From the NCBI RefSeq assembly GCF_004143485.2, contig NZ_ML974130.1, positions 356,917 to 420,916 of the forward strand: a stretch of 64,000 nucleotides of DNA. The letters run 5' to 3'. Below are positions 1 to 7,899 of this stretch, piece after piece. The stretch is from Halorussus amylolyticus. Lineage in GTDB: Archaea; Halobacteriota; Halobacteria; Halobacteriales; Haladaptataceae. Made by a program: the position numbers and the translations under genes. How positions within the stretch are numbered: the first letter of the stretch is position 1; the number at the start of each line of letters is the position of its first letter. The notes beneath the pieces are model-generated. The model was given only the letters and a program-made list of their open reading frames with translations, was not told where the DNA came from and made no database searches.

Positions 1-1
1 C

Positions 2-2023
2 CAGACGCAACAGCAGTCGGGCGATTCGGCAGTCGTGCAGTCCCAATCCCAGAGCATCTACGTCGAGCAGAATCAGTGCCAGCAGCAGGGCGACGGCACC
101 GACAACGACCAGACGCAGATGCAGTTCCTGAACATCGTCTTCGTCCAAGACGAGAGTCAAATCGAAGACGGCGAAGACGACGCGCAAAGTCAGGACCAAT
201 TCATCGACTCCGACCAATCGTCTTCGCAGAATCAGGAGGACGATTCCCAACGGCAGACCCAGACGCAGGTGTTCACCGTCTTCTTCATGCAGGACGAGGA
301 CCAGTCGGCTGGCAACGACTCGAACCGACAGTCTCAGGAACAGCGTATTGAGATTGACCAGAACGGCGACCAGACCCAAGGGAACGGGACGAACCAGACT
401 CAGACCCAGTACCAACGGACCAACGTCGTCTACATGGGACAGGAACAGGTCCAGGACGACCAGGCCCAGTCTCAGAACCAATCGGTCGATGCCGAGCAGT
501 ATCAGAACCAAGAGCAGGACGAGAACGGGAGTCAGAACCAGACCCAAGCGGAGAACGTCACGATAGCGCAGAATCAAACGCAGGGCCAGCAGAACGCCTC
601 CGCGAACCAGACGCAGAATCAGTCGGTGGCCGTCAATCAGAGCCAGAATCAGTCTCAGGGCGGCGAGGAGTTCAATCAGACTCAGAATCAGAGCCAGCGC
701 GTCGAAGCCGAGCAGAACGCCACCCAGAGCGGCGGTGAGAACCAGACCCAATCTCAGAACCAGACGATTAGCTCGAACCAGAGCCAGTCCCAGAACCAGA
801 CGCTCGAAAACGATTCGGCCGACCAGCGCGTTTCGGTCGATGCGAACCAGTCGCAGGTGCAGAACCAGACCGGCGACAACAACACCCAGTCGCTGAATCA
901 GACCGGTTCGGTGTCGGCGAACCAGACCCAGAATCAGTCGCGGAACACGTCCGGGACGACGGCGGACCCGAGCGAAGCGGCGTCGGCATCCTCGACGGAG
1001 ACCGAGGCGGGTGAGGCTTCGGACGAAGACGCCGAGACGGACGAGTCCGTGGACGAGGACTCCGAAGCGGACGAACCGACGACCGTCGAGGAGACGCAAT
1101 CGACGGACACCGAGACGGACGAATCCGAACGCGACTCGACGACTTCGGACTCCGAGGATGCCGAGTCGTCGAACGACGAGACGGACGACAGTGACGACTC
1201 GCCGGACGAGAACGCGGAGGAACAAGACCGGTCCAGAGAAGATACGGAAGAAGGAGGGACATCCAGCGAGAACGCGGAGAAGAGCGAATCGACGACCGGG
1301 GAAGACGACACCGAGGAGGATTCGACGACGAGCGACGACGAGGACCGTAGCGCCGACGGACCCGGCGACGAGACTGACGAACAATCGTCGTCGAGTGACG
1401 GTGAAAACGAGGACGAACCGGCAAGCGACGGCGGAGACGACGACCCCGAGGAGACCGAAGAGACGGACGGCGAAGAACCGCCGTCGGATGAGAACGCCGA
1501 GGAGGACGAATCGGAAACGAATGAACCGACCGAGTCGGAGGAAAATGACGGTGACGACGCGGAAGCAAACGACAACGACGAGGAAGCGGACGAGGACAAC
1601 GAGGAAGAAAGCGATAACGAAGCAGGGGAAGAAAACGCCGACAACGACGGAAACGAGTCGTCGGCCGATGAAGGCGAGTCCGAATCGGACGCCGAGACGG
1701 ATGACTCAGATGCCGACGAAAGCAACGCCGAGAACGAGGGGACGGACGGAGACGAGTCGAACGACGAGACCACGGAAGACGACCAGTCGGACGAGAGCGA
1801 AGCCGAGGGGGACGATACGTCGGGTGAGGACGCCGAGGCGGGCGAAGAAGACCAATCCGACGAAAGCGAGAACGAGGGCGACTCGCCGTCCGAGGAGAAC
1901 GACGAAAGCGAGAGTAGTGACGGAGACAGCGAGGAGACGGAGACCGGCGAAGACGCCGAACCGTCCGACGAAGGAACGGGGAACGAATCAGACGCCATCG
2001 TAACCTCGCCGACCATCGGGTAG
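2..2023 (+). CDS. Gln/Asn/Ser/Thr-rich repetitive protein with acidic C-terminal half (5' partial)
   Basis: The frame is open from the left edge, so the true start lies outside; the first in-window GTG (35) is mid-protein. The N-terminal part, to about base 940, is almost entirely Gln, Asn, Ser and Thr in alternating runs such as NQTQNQSQ. Three copies of a 47-48-residue super-repeat begin with QTQxQ followed by a hydrophobic strand (FLNIVFVQ, VFTVFFMQ, RTNVVYMGQ). Over 20 N-x-S/T sequons suggest N-glycosylation of an exported protein. The second half is a Glu/Asp/Ser-rich, probably disordered tail of about 340 residues. It ends in a short hydrophobic segment (DAIVTSPTIG), like the end of the next gene (DAMVAPVAL). 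No enzyme domain is recognised. A surface or extracellular structural role is inferred, not shown; the signal peptide would be outside the window. Confidence 0.8.
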   Translation, partial: QTQQQSGDSAVVQSQSQSIYVEQNQCQQQGDGTDNDQTQMQFLNIVFVQDESQIEDGEDDAQSQDQFIDSDQSSSQNQEDDSQRQTQTQVFTVFFMQDEDQSAGNDSNRQSQEQRIEIDQNGDQTQGNGTNQTQTQYQRTNVVYMGQEQVQDDQAQSQNQSVDAEQYQNQEQDENGSQNQTQAENVTIAQNQTQGQQNASANQTQNQSVAVNQSQNQSQGGEEFNQTQNQSQRVEAEQNATQSGGENQTQSQNQTISSNQSQSQNQTLENDSADQRVSVDANQSQVQNQTGDNNTQSLNQTGSVSANQTQNQSRNTSGTTADPSEAASASSTETEAGEASDEDAETDESVDEDSEADEPTTVEETQSTDTETDESERDSTTSDSEDAESSNDETDDSDDSPDENAEEQDRSREDTEEGGTSSENAEKSESTTGEDDTEEDSTTSDDEDRSADGPGDETDEQSSSSDGENEDEPASDGGDDDPEETEETDGEEPPSDENAEEDESETNEPTESEENDGDDAEANDNDEEADEDNEEESDNEAGEENADNDGNESSADEGESESDAETDDSDADESNAENEGTDGDESNDETTEDDQSDESEAEGDDTSGEDAEAGEEDQSDESENEGDSPSEENDESESSDGDSEETETGEDAEPSDEGTGNESDAIVTSPTIG

Positions 2024-2652: not shown

Positions 2653-5469
2653 ATGAGAGCAAACGAGACCAGAACGGGACGTGCGGTCGCACTCACGCTC
2701 GCCATCGTAATGATGGTCAGCGTGGTCAGTTTCGGAATGGCTGGAGCGGCAGTCGCACAGGACGATAACTGTCAGGACGCGGAAGACGATGTCGATGCTG
2801 TGGTGTCGAATACGCAAATCGAGATCGGCGACGACAACCGCCAACAGTTGCTCCGCTTGCTTGACATCATTCAAAATTCGAACCAAGATATCGACGAGGA
2901 CAGCGACAATAATTGTCAAGAGTCGGACCAAGACAGCGAGGTTGACCTAGAGAACGACCAGGAGATCGACGGTGACGACAACGTTCAGGACGCCGACCAG
3001 CTCCAAGACGAGGACGACGAGGAGCCTAACGTCATCGAGAACGAGAACGAGCAGGATATCGAGGGCGGCGACGACAACGAACAGGAGAACGAACAGGAGA
3101 GCGAACTCGACCAAGAGAACGACCAAGAAATCGACGGTGACGACAACGAGCAGTACAGCGACCAAGAAGCCGAACTGGAGAACGAGAACGAGCAGGAAGT
3201 CGAGGGTGACGACAGCCTGAGCATCGGCTCGGACGCCGGTGACGACAACGAACAGGAGAACGAACAGGAGAACGAGGCCGAACAGGAGAACGAACAGGAA
3301 GTCGAGGACGGTGACGACAACGAACAGGACGGCGAGCAAGAGGTCGAACAGGAGAACGAGAACGAACAGGAAGTCGAGGGTGACACCGATTTCAGTGCTG
3401 GGTCGGACGCCGGTAACGACAACGAACAGGAGAACGAACAGGAGAACGAGGCCGAACAGGAGAACGAACAGGAAGTCGAGGACGGTGACGACAACGAACA
3501 GGACGGCGAGCAAGAGGTCGAACAGGAGAACGAGAACGAGCAGGAAGTCGAGGGTGACGCGAGCGATAGCTTCGGTTCGGACGCTGGTGAGGACAACGAG
3601 CAAGAAGCCGAACAGGAGAACGAGGCCGAACAGGAGAACGAGCAGGAAGTCGAAGACGGTGACGACAACGACCAAGAGAACGAACAGGAGTTCGAGCAGG
3701 AGAACGAGAACGAGCAGGAAGTCGAGGGTGACGCGAGCCAGAGTATCGCTTCGGACGCCGGTAACGACAACGAGCAGGAAGCCGAGCAGGAGAACGAAGG
3801 CGAGCAGGAGAACGAGCAGGAAGTCGAGGATGGCGACGACAACGAGCAGGAGAACGAACAGGAGGGCGAACAGGAGAACGACCTCGAACAGGAAGTCGAA
3901 GGTGACGCGAGCCTGAGTATCGGCGCGGACGCCGGTAACGACAACGAGCAGGAAGGCGAACAGGAGAACGAGGCCGAGCAAGAGAACGAGCAGGAGGTCG
4001 AAGACGGTGACGACAACGAGCAGGACGGCGAGCAGGAAATTGAGCAGGAGAACGAGGGCGAGCAGGAAGTCGAGGACGGTAACGACAACGAACAGGAGGC
4101 CGAACAGGAGAACGAGGCCGAGCAGGAAGGCGAACAGGAAGTCGAGGACGGTGACGACAACGAGCAGGAGAACGAGCAGGAGGGCGAACAGGAGAACGAA
4201 ATCGAACAGGAAGCTGAGGACGACGACAACGAACAAGAGGGCGAACAGGAGAACGAACTCGAACAGGACGTTGAGCAAGAGGTCGAAGACGGTGACGACA
4301 ACGAGCAGGAGGCCGAACAGGAAGCCGAGCAGGAGAACGAGGGCGAACAAGAGGCTGAGGGCGACGACAACGAGCAGGACCTAGAACAGGAGAACGAAGA
4401 GGAACAGGACGTTGAGCAGGAAGTCGAAGACGGTGACGACAACGAGCAGGAGGCCGAACAGGAGAGCGACCAAGAGAACGAAGCCGAGCAGGAAGCCGAC
4501 GGCGACGACAACGAACAGGAAGCCGACCAAGAGAACGAGGACGAGCAGGAGGCCGAGCAGGAAGTCGAGGACGGTGACGACAACGAACAGGAAGCCGAGC
4601 AAGAGAACGAGCAAGAAAACGAGGCCGAACAGGAGGCTGACGGCGAGGACAACGAACAGGAAGCCGAGCAAGAGAACGAGAACGAACAGGAAGTCGAGCA
4701 AGAGGCTGAGGACGACGACAACGAACAAGAGGCCGAACAGGAGAACGAGCAAGAAAACGAGGTCGAGCAGGAAGCCGACGGCGAGGACAACGAACAGGAA
4801 GCCGAGCAAGAGAACGAAGGTGAGCAAGAGGTCGAACAGGAAGCTGACGGCGAGGACAACGAACAGGAAGCCGAACAGGAGAACGAACAGGAGAACGAGG
4901 CCGAACAGGAGGCTGACGGCGAGGACAACGAACAGGAAGCCGAACAGGAAAACGAGGCTGAGCAAGAGGCCGAACAAGAGGCGGACGGCGACGACAACGA
5001 GCAGGATGTCGAACAGGAGAACGAACAGGAGAACGAGGTCGAGCAGGAAGCCGACGGTGACGACAACGAACAGGACGCCGAACAGGAGAGCAACGTCGAC
5101 CAAGAGGCCGAGCAGGAGGCTGAGGGCGACGACAACGAACAGGAGGCCGAACAGGACGCCGAAGTCGAGCAGGAAATCGACCAGGAGTCCGACGGTGACG
5201 ACAACGAGCAGAGCGTCGAACAGGAGAGCAACGTCGAGCAGAACAGCGAACAGGACGCTGACGGCGACGACGAACAGAGCCAGAGCTCCGACGTGGACAT
5301 CGAGCAGGACGACGAGCAGAGCCAAGACGGTGACGGCAACGAGCAGAGTTCGAGTTCGTCGATAAACGTCGAGTCCAACCAGGACCAGAGCCAGGGCGAC
5401 GATGACGATGACGAAGACGACGAGGACGACGAGGACAACGACGCCATGGTCGCGCCCGTCGCGTTGTAG
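2653..5469 (+). CDS. Secreted Glu/Gln/Asn repeat protein, curli-like periodicity
   Basis: Product of 938 residues. Residues 1-36 form a Sec-type signal: basic start, hydrophobic core LTLAIVMMVSVVSFGMAG, cleavage site near AVA-QDD. A short region with two Cys follows. The rest is repeats in which nearly every second residue is Glu and the alternate ones are Gln, Asn, Ala or Val, broken by G/D-D-N turns. Five 58-residue units each carry a GDASxSIGSDAG-like insert; ten exact 23-residue units begin DNEQ. The spacing N-x5-Q after a G-x-x-N turn resembles curlin repeats (CsgA family, 22-23 residues). The tail is poly-Asp/Glu ending MVAPVAL. A beta-solenoid or amyloid-like extracellular fibre with a Glu-coated face is my inference. 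Long open frames on the opposite strand are artefacts of the repeats. Confidence 0.9.
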   Translation: MRANETRTGRAVALTLAIVMMVSVVSFGMAGAAVAQDDNCQDAEDDVDAVVSNTQIEIGDDNRQQLLRLLDIIQNSNQDIDEDSDNNCQESDQDSEVDLENDQEIDGDDNVQDADQLQDEDDEEPNVIENENEQDIEGGDDNEQENEQESELDQENDQEIDGDDNEQYSDQEAELENENEQEVEGDDSLSIGSDAGDDNEQENEQENEAEQENEQEVEDGDDNEQDGEQEVEQENENEQEVEGDTDFSAGSDAGNDNEQENEQENEAEQENEQEVEDGDDNEQDGEQEVEQENENEQEVEGDASDSFGSDAGEDNEQEAEQENEAEQENEQEVEDGDDNDQENEQEFEQENENEQEVEGDASQSIASDAGNDNEQEAEQENEGEQENEQEVEDGDDNEQENEQEGEQENDLEQEVEGDASLSIGADAGNDNEQEGEQENEAEQENEQEVEDGDDNEQDGEQEIEQENEGEQEVEDGNDNEQEAEQENEAEQEGEQEVEDGDDNEQENEQEGEQENEIEQEAEDDDNEQEGEQENELEQDVEQEVEDGDDNEQEAEQEAEQENEGEQEAEGDDNEQDLEQENEEEQDVEQEVEDGDDNEQEAEQESDQENEAEQEADGDDNEQEADQENEDEQEAEQEVEDGDDNEQEAEQENEQENEAEQEADGEDNEQEAEQENENEQEVEQEAEDDDNEQEAEQENEQENEVEQEADGEDNEQEAEQENEGEQEVEQEADGEDNEQEAEQENEQENEAEQEADGEDNEQEAEQENEAEQEAEQEADGDDNEQDVEQENEQENEVEQEADGDDNEQDAEQESNVDQEAEQEAEGDDNEQEAEQDAEVEQEIDQESDGDDNEQSVEQESNVEQNSEQDADGDDEQSQSSDVDIEQDDEQSQDGDGNEQSSSSSINVESNQDQSQGDDDDDEDDEDDEDNDAMVAPVAL
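3205..4074 (+). repeat. Five tandem 174-bp (58-residue) coding repeats
   Basis: The codons for Gly-Asp that open the GDxSxSIGSDAG insert recur at 3205, 3379, 3553, 3727 and 3901, exactly 174 bases apart each time. The DNA of neighbouring units is nearly identical over long stretches, indicating recent duplication or gene conversion. Each unit encodes two alternating Glu/Gln segments separated by a DGDDN turn. Confidence 0.9.
4579..5268 (+). repeat. Ten tandem 69-bp (23-residue) coding repeats
   Basis: The Asp codon opening the DNEQ/DNEQD motif falls at 4579, 4648, 4717, 4786, 4855, 4924, 4993, 5062, 5131 and 5200, with an invariant 69-base spacing. An eleventh, degenerate start (DEQ) is at 5269. 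Unit length and the conserved N and Q positions match curlin-type repeats. Confidence 0.9.
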
Positions 5470-5592: not shown

Positions 5593-7023
5593 ATGGCACG
5601 CGAGCGAGAACGCGACTGTAGCCCAGAGGCATCGCTGCTCGGCAGACGAAACTACCTCCGAACCGTTGGTGCGGTCGGAGCTCTCGGAGTGGGGTTCGGG
5701 GGCCGAGTATCGGCACGTCCGAACGGTCCGGCCGTGGACGCGACCGCGGTCACCGTCGACGAGAACTGGAAGACGGTTCGACTCTCCGACTCGCACTCGG
5801 ATCCGGTCGTCGTCGCCCCCGCACTATCCTATCGAGGACCCCAACCCGCGTCTCCGCGTCTCCGGAACGTCACGGACTCGGCGTTCGACATCGCGGTCGA
5901 GGAGTGGCTCTACCTCGACGGCCCACACCGCGAGGAGACCGTGGGATGCGTCGCGACCGACCCCGGGCGATACGGCGTCGGTGACCTCGAACTCGAAGTC
6001 GGGCGAGTGCGGACGAACCACGACTGGACTGCTTTCGAGTTCGACTCGGCGTTCGCGACGACGCCGCTCGTGTTCACGCACGCCCAGACGGTCGCGGGTC
6101 CGCAACCGATGGTGACCCGGAACCGGGGCGTCTCCCGGTCGGGCGCGGCGGTCCGGGTTCAGGAGGAGGAGGCTCAGGGTCCCCACCGCTTCGAGGACGT
6201 GGGCTACCTCGCGGTCGAACCCGGGTCGGGGACGCTCGACGGCCGCGCGTTCGAGGCGGGGTCGCGCTCCGGCGTGGGCCACGGGTGGGAGACCATCGAG
6301 TTCGACGGCGACTACCGCGAGCCGGTGTTACTCGCCGACGTGCAGACGTTTCGCGGGTCGAACACCTGCTCGGTCCGGTACCGGAACCTTGGGGGATCGT
6401 CGGTCGATGTCAAGGTCGAGGAGGAGCGAAGCGCCGACAGAGAGACGGCCCACCTCGGCGAACGCGTGGGATATTTCGTCGTCGAAGGGGCCGACGAGGA
6501 GGACGGCGAGGCCGACGACCGGGAGGAATCGGACGAGAGCACCCCGCTCTCGGACCTCGACAGGGACCGGATCGAGGACCTCGTCCACGAACACGTCAAC
6601 GAACGCCGGAGCGACCACGGACTGGGTGCGGTCGATTTCGATACGGACCTCCGCGAAATCGCTCGGTCTCACAGCGAGGACATGGCCGAGAACGACTACT
6701 TCAGCCACGAGTCGCCCGACGGCGAGACGCGAAGCGACCGGTACGACGAGTTCGGCTACGACTGCCGGGCGTACATTGACGAGAGCCGATACTACACCGG
6801 CGGCGAGAACATAGCGTACACGTATTACGACGCGAACGTCGCGACCGACGACGGCACCGTCCGGTACACGACCGCCGACGAACTCGCCGAGGGAGTCGTT
6901 CGCGGGTGGATGAACTCGGAGGGCCACCGCGAGAACATCTTGACCGAGGCGTGGAACAACGAGGGTATCGGCGTGTACGTCACGTCCGAGGGGAAAGTGT
7001 ACGCGACTCAGAACTTCTGTTAG
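5593..7023 (+). CDS. Tat-exported CAP (SCP/PR1) domain protein with three lectin-like repeats
   Basis: Product of 476 residues. A twin-arginine motif (GRRNYLRTVGAVGALG, Arg18-Arg19) marks Tat export of a folded protein. Residues about 55-310 hold three tandem repeats of 75-80 residues, each with (D/H)xW..V/F.....F..PVV/L and ending VGYxxVEPG; they resemble H-type lectin domains. After an acidic linker (EEDGEADDREESDES), residues about 325-476 form a CAP domain with HEHVNERR, HSEDMAENDYFSH, GGENIAY, GWMNSEGHRENIL and GIGVYV, including the usual His and Glu residues. CAP proteins occur widely as secreted proteins of debated function. The combination suggests a cell-surface or polysaccharide-binding protein; the ligand is unknown. 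Confidence 0.85.
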   Translation: MARERERDCSPEASLLGRRNYLRTVGAVGALGVGFGGRVSARPNGPAVDATAVTVDENWKTVRLSDSHSDPVVVAPALSYRGPQPASPRLRNVTDSAFDIAVEEWLYLDGPHREETVGCVATDPGRYGVGDLELEVGRVRTNHDWTAFEFDSAFATTPLVFTHAQTVAGPQPMVTRNRGVSRSGAAVRVQEEEAQGPHRFEDVGYLAVEPGSGTLDGRAFEAGSRSGVGHGWETIEFDGDYREPVLLADVQTFRGSNTCSVRYRNLGGSSVDVKVEEERSADRETAHLGERVGYFVVEGADEEDGEADDREESDESTPLSDLDRDRIEDLVHEHVNERRSDHGLGAVDFDTDLREIARSHSEDMAENDYFSHESPDGETRSDRYDEFGYDCRAYIDESRYYTGGENIAYTYYDANVATDDGTVRYTTADELAEGVVRGWMNSEGHRENILTEAWNNEGIGVYVTSEGKVYATQNFC

Positions 7024-7119
7024 CTCCCGCTTCGATACCGAGTCCTCGACGCCAATTTCAACGCGGCCGACGCTGAACTGCAGGGGAAACCGTTTGTGAC
7101 CGTCCAGCGTGGTAGTGCT

Positions 7120-7899
7120 ATGTCACGCTTGCCGAACCGCCCGACTGCACTCCTACTCGCGGGGTTGCTGGTGGGAAGCCTCTTGGCGGCGGCCCCGGCC
7201 GCGGGTGACGGGGTGGGAAGCCACGGCGGTGAGTCCGAACAGAGACTGATTCCAACCATGACAACGAACGAAACACCGGTCGAAGTCGAGGTCGACTGTA
7301 ATCGAAGCCGGGTCGAACTCGCGGCTTCCGAGGACTTCCGGTACGAGGTGACGGTGACCGTCGCGAACATCACGCCGTCGTCGAACGACGTGTCGCGTTC
7401 GACCCTCGGTTCAGTCTCGGGGAACGAAACTGTCGCGCTCGACGGCGAGGGAATCGTGTTCGTCTTCGCGAAGGATTCGACGGACGGCGGTGGCGTCGTC
7501 GCGACCGCCGTGACCGACTGTTCGGTCGCGACCGAACAGTCGGCCAGCGACGAGGGCACGACCGCGACGGAGTCCGACGACGACCCCGGGATTCGAATCG
7601 ACTGCAACGAGAGCGAGGTCGCGTACACCGCGCCCGAAGAGACGGAGTACGTCGCGAAGACGGTCTCCGTGAACGTCTCGCCCACGGGCACGTCCGCGAG
7701 CAGCGCGACCCGGACGCTCGCGGGCAACGAGACGGTGTCAGTCGACGAGGGGACGCTCGTCGCGGCGTTCGCCTCGACCGGCGACCTCGGCGACGACCGG
7801 ACTGTCTCGGTGATTCGAAACTGCTCGCCGTACGGCGACGAGCGACTTTCGGAGAACGCGAGCGATACCGACGACCGGAGCGGCGGTCTCGACGCTTAA
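7120..7899 (+). CDS. Small secreted protein with two internal repeats
   Basis: Start chosen at ATG 7120 ([19 protein letters not shown]) because it begins a clean Sec signal; a GTG at 7096 would add eight residues. The mature part has two copies of one domain: one starts [10 protein letters not shown], the other [10 protein letters not shown]. Both run into a beta-rich stretch with (Y/V)EVTVTVANI or [10 protein letters not shown], a GNETV segment and a final Cys. The two Cys per copy may form a disulfide. Several NxS/T sequons are present. The linker between the copies contains a 30-bp perfect palindrome. No family recognised; the stop overlaps the end of convergent metX by four bases. Confidence 0.75.
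7514..7543. repeat. 30-bp perfect palindrome inside the secreted-protein gene
   Basis: CCGACTGTTCGGTCG (7514-7528) is followed directly by its reverse complement (7529-7543). It encodes the [10 protein letters not shown] linker between the two protein repeats. Confidence 0.9.

Follow-up and report, generated by a model that had tools for sequence, protein, structure and literature searches.

The window analysed in the present study, a stretch of 64,000 nucleotides from the haloarchaeon Halorussus amylolyticus, carries close to its start a gene for a secreted and extremely acidic repeat protein, designated B, which raises the question of what this protein may form outside the cell. A first-pass annotation had regarded it as a candidate curli-like fibre protein adapted to high salt. 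We consider B to probably be a surface fibre that stays intact only in concentrated brine.

Gene and composition of the repeat protein

The gene is divided as follows.

2653..5469, + strand: repeat protein B, 938 residues, secreted by its signal, net charge ~ -430
2653..2760, + strand: Sec-type signal peptide of B, residues ~1-36, read from the sequence, with a putative cleavage site
2761..3066, + strand: less regular N-terminal segment with the family motifs GDxNCQ/SDNNCQ and GDDNxQ; C40, N62, Q64, N87, and Q89 are invariant
3067..3933, + strand: part 1 of the repeat array, with half-units of 23/24 residues alternating with half-units of 34 residues
3934..5193, + strand: part 2 of the repeat array, with regular alternating half-units of 23/24 residues, forming dyads of 47 residues
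5194..5466, + strand: degenerate final repeats and a D/E-rich C-terminal tail with the terminus NDAMVAPVAL

The secretion signal noted in the first-pass annotation was confirmed as a Sec-type N-terminus (MRANETRTGRAVALTLAIVMMVSVVSFGMAGAAVAQ) in the 938-residue open reading frame, and the start of this signal is conserved in the orthologue from G010, a member of the same genus. The whole protein contains 285 E, 150 D, 139 Q, and 99 N residues, and its mature part of 902 residues has 434 D/E and 2 K/R/H. The autocorrelation of acidic residues at lag 2 was 0.69 over residues 140-890, against a maximum of 0.127 in 2000 shuffles, so the alternation of acidic and non-acidic residues previously described for most of the protein is far beyond chance.

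A repeat of 47 residues

Turns of the form [DEN]DNEQ, of which B has 28, are spaced mostly by 23 or 24 residues, and the turn-N-x5-Q spacing that had been pointed out is present as G-x-x-N-E-Q-E-x-E-Q. While the reported 23-residue periodicity is real, this unit is only a half-repeat: each half-unit consists of a two-faced stretch of ~19 residues and a Gly arc, and a pair of stretches makes up a repeat of 47 residues. Half-units cut at G-x-x-N alternate in type, with a same-position identity of the Q/N class of 0.85-0.96 at i+2 and 0.46-0.82 at i+1, and the Gly arcs alternate between 4 (X-G-X-X) and 5 residues (X-X-G-X-X). The dominant period of the relatives is 47 in G017, HArc-gm2, Halostella, and G272, 46 in G010:C2, and 48 in G197; the window protein has periods of 58, 46, and 23, with 10 extra residues on every second arc in part 1 of its array. 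Five half-units of 34 residues lie early in the array, and their ten additional residues (e.g., EGDASLSIGADAGND) are confined to every second arc, while hydrophobic arcs (VLFGDD, GVL) and insertions are restricted to one arc type of the alternating pair. As judged from the repeat sequence, the 47-residue dyad, the alternating arc lengths, and the one-sided hydrophobic or inserted arcs suggest a ribbon or solenoid whose two edges differ.

Two faces maintained by selection

We compared 207 half-units from eight proteins, which were located solely by the G/D-x-x-N turn and unit length. D/E accounted for 1.7% of residues at the ten positions of the inner face and for 73%, pooled, at the nine positions of the outer face. 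The inner face of the family consists of Q, N, A, S, and V, with Q at position 3 in 203 and at position 17 in 202 of the 207 half-units (98% each). The outer face, which is 91% E in the window protein, shifts to D, S, G, and T in relatives, whereas the inner face is kept, and the Halostella relative, the outer face of which is only 36% D/E, has an unchanged Q/N face.

Between the units of B, dN was 0.19 and dS was 2.1 (dN/dS ~0.09), while a comparison with the closest orthologue (G010, 75% identical) yielded a dN of 0.15 and dS of 0.95 (dN/dS 0.16). Since synonymous changes greatly exceed non-synonymous changes, the alternation is maintained by selection at the protein level, and repeat expansion or slippage at the DNA level was ruled out as its source by these ratios.

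The main rival of a fibre is a disordered secreted polyanion that serves as a hydration layer, a reservoir of cations (Mg/Ca/K), or a mucin-like coat against desiccation, in which the alternation simply sets the charge spacing. The ratio of 434 acidic to 2 basic residues is consistent with such a polyanion, as are the long acidic low-complexity linkers that are also present in the partner protein A; however, a polyanion does not need an acid-free face resembling a Gln ladder, on which Q3 and Q17 are retained despite the drift of the acidic face toward S/G/T, and does not need a strict dyad with alternating arc lengths. The Halostella protein, with its weakly acidic outer face and the same Q/N face, also argues against this explanation, which we regard as unlikely, albeit deserving of appreciable weight.

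Relationship with curlins

The CsgA coil has been described as N-$-psi-$-psi-$-Q-X-G-X-X-N-$-psi-$-psi-$-Q-X-G-X-X, with ~23 residues (PMC10192328), and the reference structure is that of CsgA R15.5 from Pontibacter korlensis (PDB 8c50; Sleutel et al. 2023, PMC10192328). Surveys treat curli as bacterial, and one archaeal protein with curli-like repeats was mentioned in 2012 (PMC3521004). As a member of this family, B would form 23-residue coils with two 7-residue strands and two arcs. Its G-x-x-N-x5-Q half-motif and 23-residue period, a phmmer match to 8c50 (E 9.4e-9), and the occurrence of true Curlin_rpt proteins in the same genus are in line with membership, which was examined using profile searches, a coil model, and the transport gene.

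The Pfam Curlin_rpt profile (PF07012), the search for which had been proposed as a check, did not match B even at an E-value of 10, with the haloarchaeal control L032 giving 1.8e-47, and did not match the relatives of B at E-values up to 1; no family in Pfam, NCBIfam, or PHROG covers the protein. An HMM of the R15.5 coils scored all nine members of the B family below zero, which was no better than parity-preserving shuffles, and gave 194 and 130 bits for the haloarchaeal curlins L032 and L035. The match to 8c50 was rejected as homology because its bias (43.5) exceeded its score (35.1) and permuted versions of B that keep the turns matched too; it was not reproduced in a local comparison with the printed fragment. 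CsgG (PF03783) was absent from G000, G010, G017, G202, G079, and G302, while the E. coli control was positive, and, to our knowledge, the outer membrane served by CsgG is missing in Archaea. Regarding the curlin repeat Ser-x5-Gln-x4-Asn-x5-Gln with which B had been compared, its second half (x4-Asn-x5-Gln past the second turn) is absent: the half-unit of the window protein includes the first N-x5-Q and a single arc, and the alternation runs on where the other arc would be expected, so that every 23 residues contain one turn rather than two, and the strands modelled for the Halostella relative extend over 14-19 residues. The family link of the first-pass annotation was not sustained by these results; based on the sequence comparisons, B is outside the curlin family though curli-like in design, and its membership appears very improbable.

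In common with curli CsgA/CsgB (PF07012), B is a secreted repeat protein with a G-x-x-N-x5-Q half-motif and a paired partner subunit, its N/Q and small residues would point inward and its polar or acidic residues outward, and each structural repeat has two Gly arcs (4 and 4-5 residues). In contrast to curli, which has structural repeats of 23 residues with 7-residue strands, B has a repeat of 47 residues with predicted strands of ~19 residues, lacks a mid-unit parity flip, has a putative core that is almost all amide or small, is far more acidic, has no PF07012 match or csg genes, and is paired with a partner that bears an FG-GAP propeller.

According to profile matches, genuine curlin-repeat proteins occur in haloarchaea, including a congener. 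They are L032:9419-10462 (G010:C5, same genus) and L035, L036, L037, and L038 from another genus; L035 matches PF07012 at an E-value of 2.1e-45, and L032 also matches the NCBIfam CsgB model at 2e-26 as well as the CsgA model. Similar to B, these proteins are haloarchaeal, secreted, and acidic in alternation (D-x-D-x), whereas their coils have 19 residues (N-x5-Q-x-N-x5-Q-x-G-x-x; GDDNDADIDQDNDADVDQD or NNDADVDQRNKAGVFQDGK), they match PF07012, and they are 207-347 residues long. L032 has a charged, helix-like C-terminal tail, with respiratory nitrate-reductase-like genes nearby and no propeller partner seen beside it. A plasmid search with L032 found no match, and a viral-contig search with the haloarchaeal curlins found one weak contig. 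The DQSNEADVDQSNEDGDD repeat of the IMG/VR contig L082:5061-5594 resembles the haloarchaeal curlin unit.

Structure prediction and strand arrangement

Structure prediction of a repeat block had also been proposed as a check, with confident disorder or helix to count against a fibre. The AF2 model of a window block of 14 half-units, obtained from a shallow alignment, had a pLDDT of 36 with neither helix nor strand, and thus showed no strands, as a disordered polyanion would, and no confident disorder or helix. Moreover, beta structure is poorly favoured by E, Q, N, and A. The N-terminal block of the Halostella relative, which has more hydrophobic residues than the window block, was modelled with 11 successive strands of 14-19 residues following two short ones, one per half-unit and interrupted at the G-x-x-N arcs; this model, the best of five (the others having a pLDDT of 27-35), had a pLDDT of 47 (strands ~50-60) and a pTM of 0.48, with an effective alignment depth of approximately two sequences because self-shifted rows collapsed onto identical positions. 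The earlier reading of beta strands with one Glu and one amide/aliphatic face holds for the conserved two-faced alternation, while the strands themselves appear at low confidence in the Halostella model.

A Foldseek search of this model against the PDB yielded no significant fold match (best E 7.3). Its seven non-significant neighbours are all proteins that we take to be parallel beta-solenoids, which is only a hint of such a fold for the model.

The same half-units may instead form a silk-like antiparallel meander, in which 19-residue strands are joined by G-D-D-N hairpin turns and the amide faces of two sheets are packed together. One strand per half-unit with turns of 4-5 residues fits hairpins equally well, and in an antiparallel register of k to 20-k, Q faces Q/N and small residues face each other between neighbouring half-units of the window protein (0.92 vs 0.51 for the null). 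Nevertheless, this complementarity was rejected as proof of strand pairing because another register scores about as well. Further points against a meander are that the parallel register at i+2 also matches (0.85-0.96), that the arcs resemble the X-G-X-X(-X) beta-arcs of curlin, and that the Foldseek neighbours are presumed parallel solenoids. A meander therefore appears improbable.

Partner protein and gene neighbourhood

The following genes surround that of B in the window.

1..2023, + strand: C-terminal part of partner A; the whole gene of 1587 residues begins outside the window (G000:C1:354176)
1..904, + strand: Q-rich domain of A, with a 23-residue period and Q alternation as in B; it extends ~100 bases upstream of the window
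5593..7023, + strand: D, a secreted CAP-domain protein and conserved neighbour (PF00188, E 3.7e-16; 67% identical in G010:C2)
7096..7899, + strand: C, a small secreted protein not assignable to any known family (53% identical in G017 and 49% in G010:C2)

Protein A consists of an FG-GAP propeller (PF01839, E 4.7e-38, 5 stretches), an acidic linker, Q-rich repeats, and an acidic tail. It lies directly upstream of B at 7 of 12 loci (G000, G017, G010:C2, HArc-gm2, Halostella pelagica, G163, and G286), while the five remaining loci (G010:C1, two copies in G197, G272, and G298) have B without A, which indicates that A is not obligatory. In G000, G010, G017, and Halostella, a single copy of its Q-domain was detected in each genome, located next to B; HArc-gm2 has one additional weak match away from B, and the domain was not found in G197 and G272, which have B only. 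In G163 (L092) and G286 (L093), B is interrupted by stops or frameshifts beside an intact-looking A; some lineages therefore seem to have a disrupted version of the putative fibre gene but to retain the propeller protein.

Protein C has two internal repeats of ~100 residues and a VDCN motif, and was found beside the A/B pair in three genomes (window 7096-7899; L030:5776-6555; L031:7165-7926). Protein D (window 5593-7023; L031:11069-12520) has an extra N-terminal repeat region.

A proposed salt-dependent surface fibre

We consider there to be an even chance that B is the main subunit of an extracellular haloarchaeal fibre or matrix that depends on salt and includes the propeller-bearing partner. 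Each stretch of ~19 residues would be a beta strand, and two sheets would pack their amide/small faces as Gln/Asn ladders in a beta-arch solenoid or an antiparallel ribbon, with the arcs making two unlike edges. The carboxylates would be directed toward the brine, their repulsion being tolerated only through screening by molar salt, and assembly should therefore be salt-gated: the fibre would form extracellularly at high salt and become looser when the salt concentration is low. Protein A, with the repeat period and Q-face of B, may serve as the nucleator, cap, or anchor of the fibre and use its FG-GAP propeller for attachment to a surface or to another cell.

The fibre reading is supported by an alternation beyond chance, the acid-free inner face, the conservation of Q3 and Q17 along with the drift of the outer face, the dN/dS ratios, the 47-residue dyad with alternating arcs, the Halostella strands, the presence of A beside B with the same 23-residue Q-repeat, and the limitation of strong matches to an order of halophiles. 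It is weakened by the low pLDDT of the window block, the low confidence of the Halostella model and its lack of a PDB fold match, the poor beta propensity of E/Q/N/A, the loci with B and no A, and a cross-strand register that is not unique. We tentatively propose, as a possibility on the doubtful side, an archaeal fibre of a new class: a solenoid or ribbon of "wide" beta-arches, with coils of 47 residues, strands of ~19 residues, an almost entirely amide/small core, and outer faces that are acidic throughout. Such a fibre would be a salt-gated amyloid, folding only when the brine is near saturation, and would have a co-encoded, integrin-like propeller protein with the same repeats as its nucleator or cap.

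Salt promotes the assembly of alternating self-assembling peptides. Designed peptides of the EAK16 type (e.g., PMC2387071) resemble B in the strict alternation of charged and uncharged residues, which is the pattern of two-faced beta strands. In contrast to these peptides, B is natural, extends over 900 residues, and has charges that are all negative and an amide face instead of an Ala face. Halomucin of Haloquadratum walsbyi is a large secreted acidic surface protein of haloarchaea. It is comparable with B by function only (PMC3119063). The sheath protein SH of Methanospirillum hungatei (PMC10593813) is an archaeal extracellular amyloid-like beta-arch assembly, as the putative B fibre would be, whereas SH, likened here by description, is a protein of ~40 kDa that forms the hoops of a sheath in a non-halophilic methanogen. 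Amyloid dyes stain the biofilms of Haloferax volcanii, for which the responsible protein has not been established (PMC4180959), and the B family and haloarchaeal Curlin_rpt proteins represent concrete candidates for an amyloid-type fibre in haloarchaea. With almost one carboxylate for every two residues on its surface, such a fibre would make it possible to test whether salt can gate amyloid-like order, and the repeat unit of B is simple enough for synthesis.

Relatives and distribution

Matches to B were obtained in 3 of 18 genomes of the genus, one of them being the window genome. At the level of the class, 34 of 391 genomes had a match at E <= 1e-3, with approximately half of these matches being weak (1e-3 to 1e-6) and mostly attributable to low-complexity sequence or the region of the N-terminal signal. 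The relatives span at least four haloarchaeal families and include proteins from Halobacteria archaeon HArc-gm2 (L078), Halostella pelagica (L079), and Haloferax profundi (L080). In a phylum-wide search of 393 genomes at E <= 1e-8, matches were confined to the same order, which comprises halophiles. A viral-contig search with the B repeat family found no match, and a bacterial match (L081) was rejected as a relative because it is a composition artefact, a helical AEAKQK protein.

G197 has two stand-alone paralogues of B (L088 and L089), one of the E-rich window type and the other similar to those of Halostella and G272. In Haloferax profundi (L080:9263-13745), two adjoining Q-rich proteins have repeats of 21 residues with a GEDNDQ turn, and this pair appears to be a shorter-period relative of the B design. 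Three adjoining genes for secreted Q-rich proteins with alternating repeats were observed in G259 (L094:5616-11478), from another haloarchaeal family, and two adjoining secreted acidic Q-rich repeat proteins, with a layout seemingly unlike that of B, in G017:C1 (L033:5903-8780).
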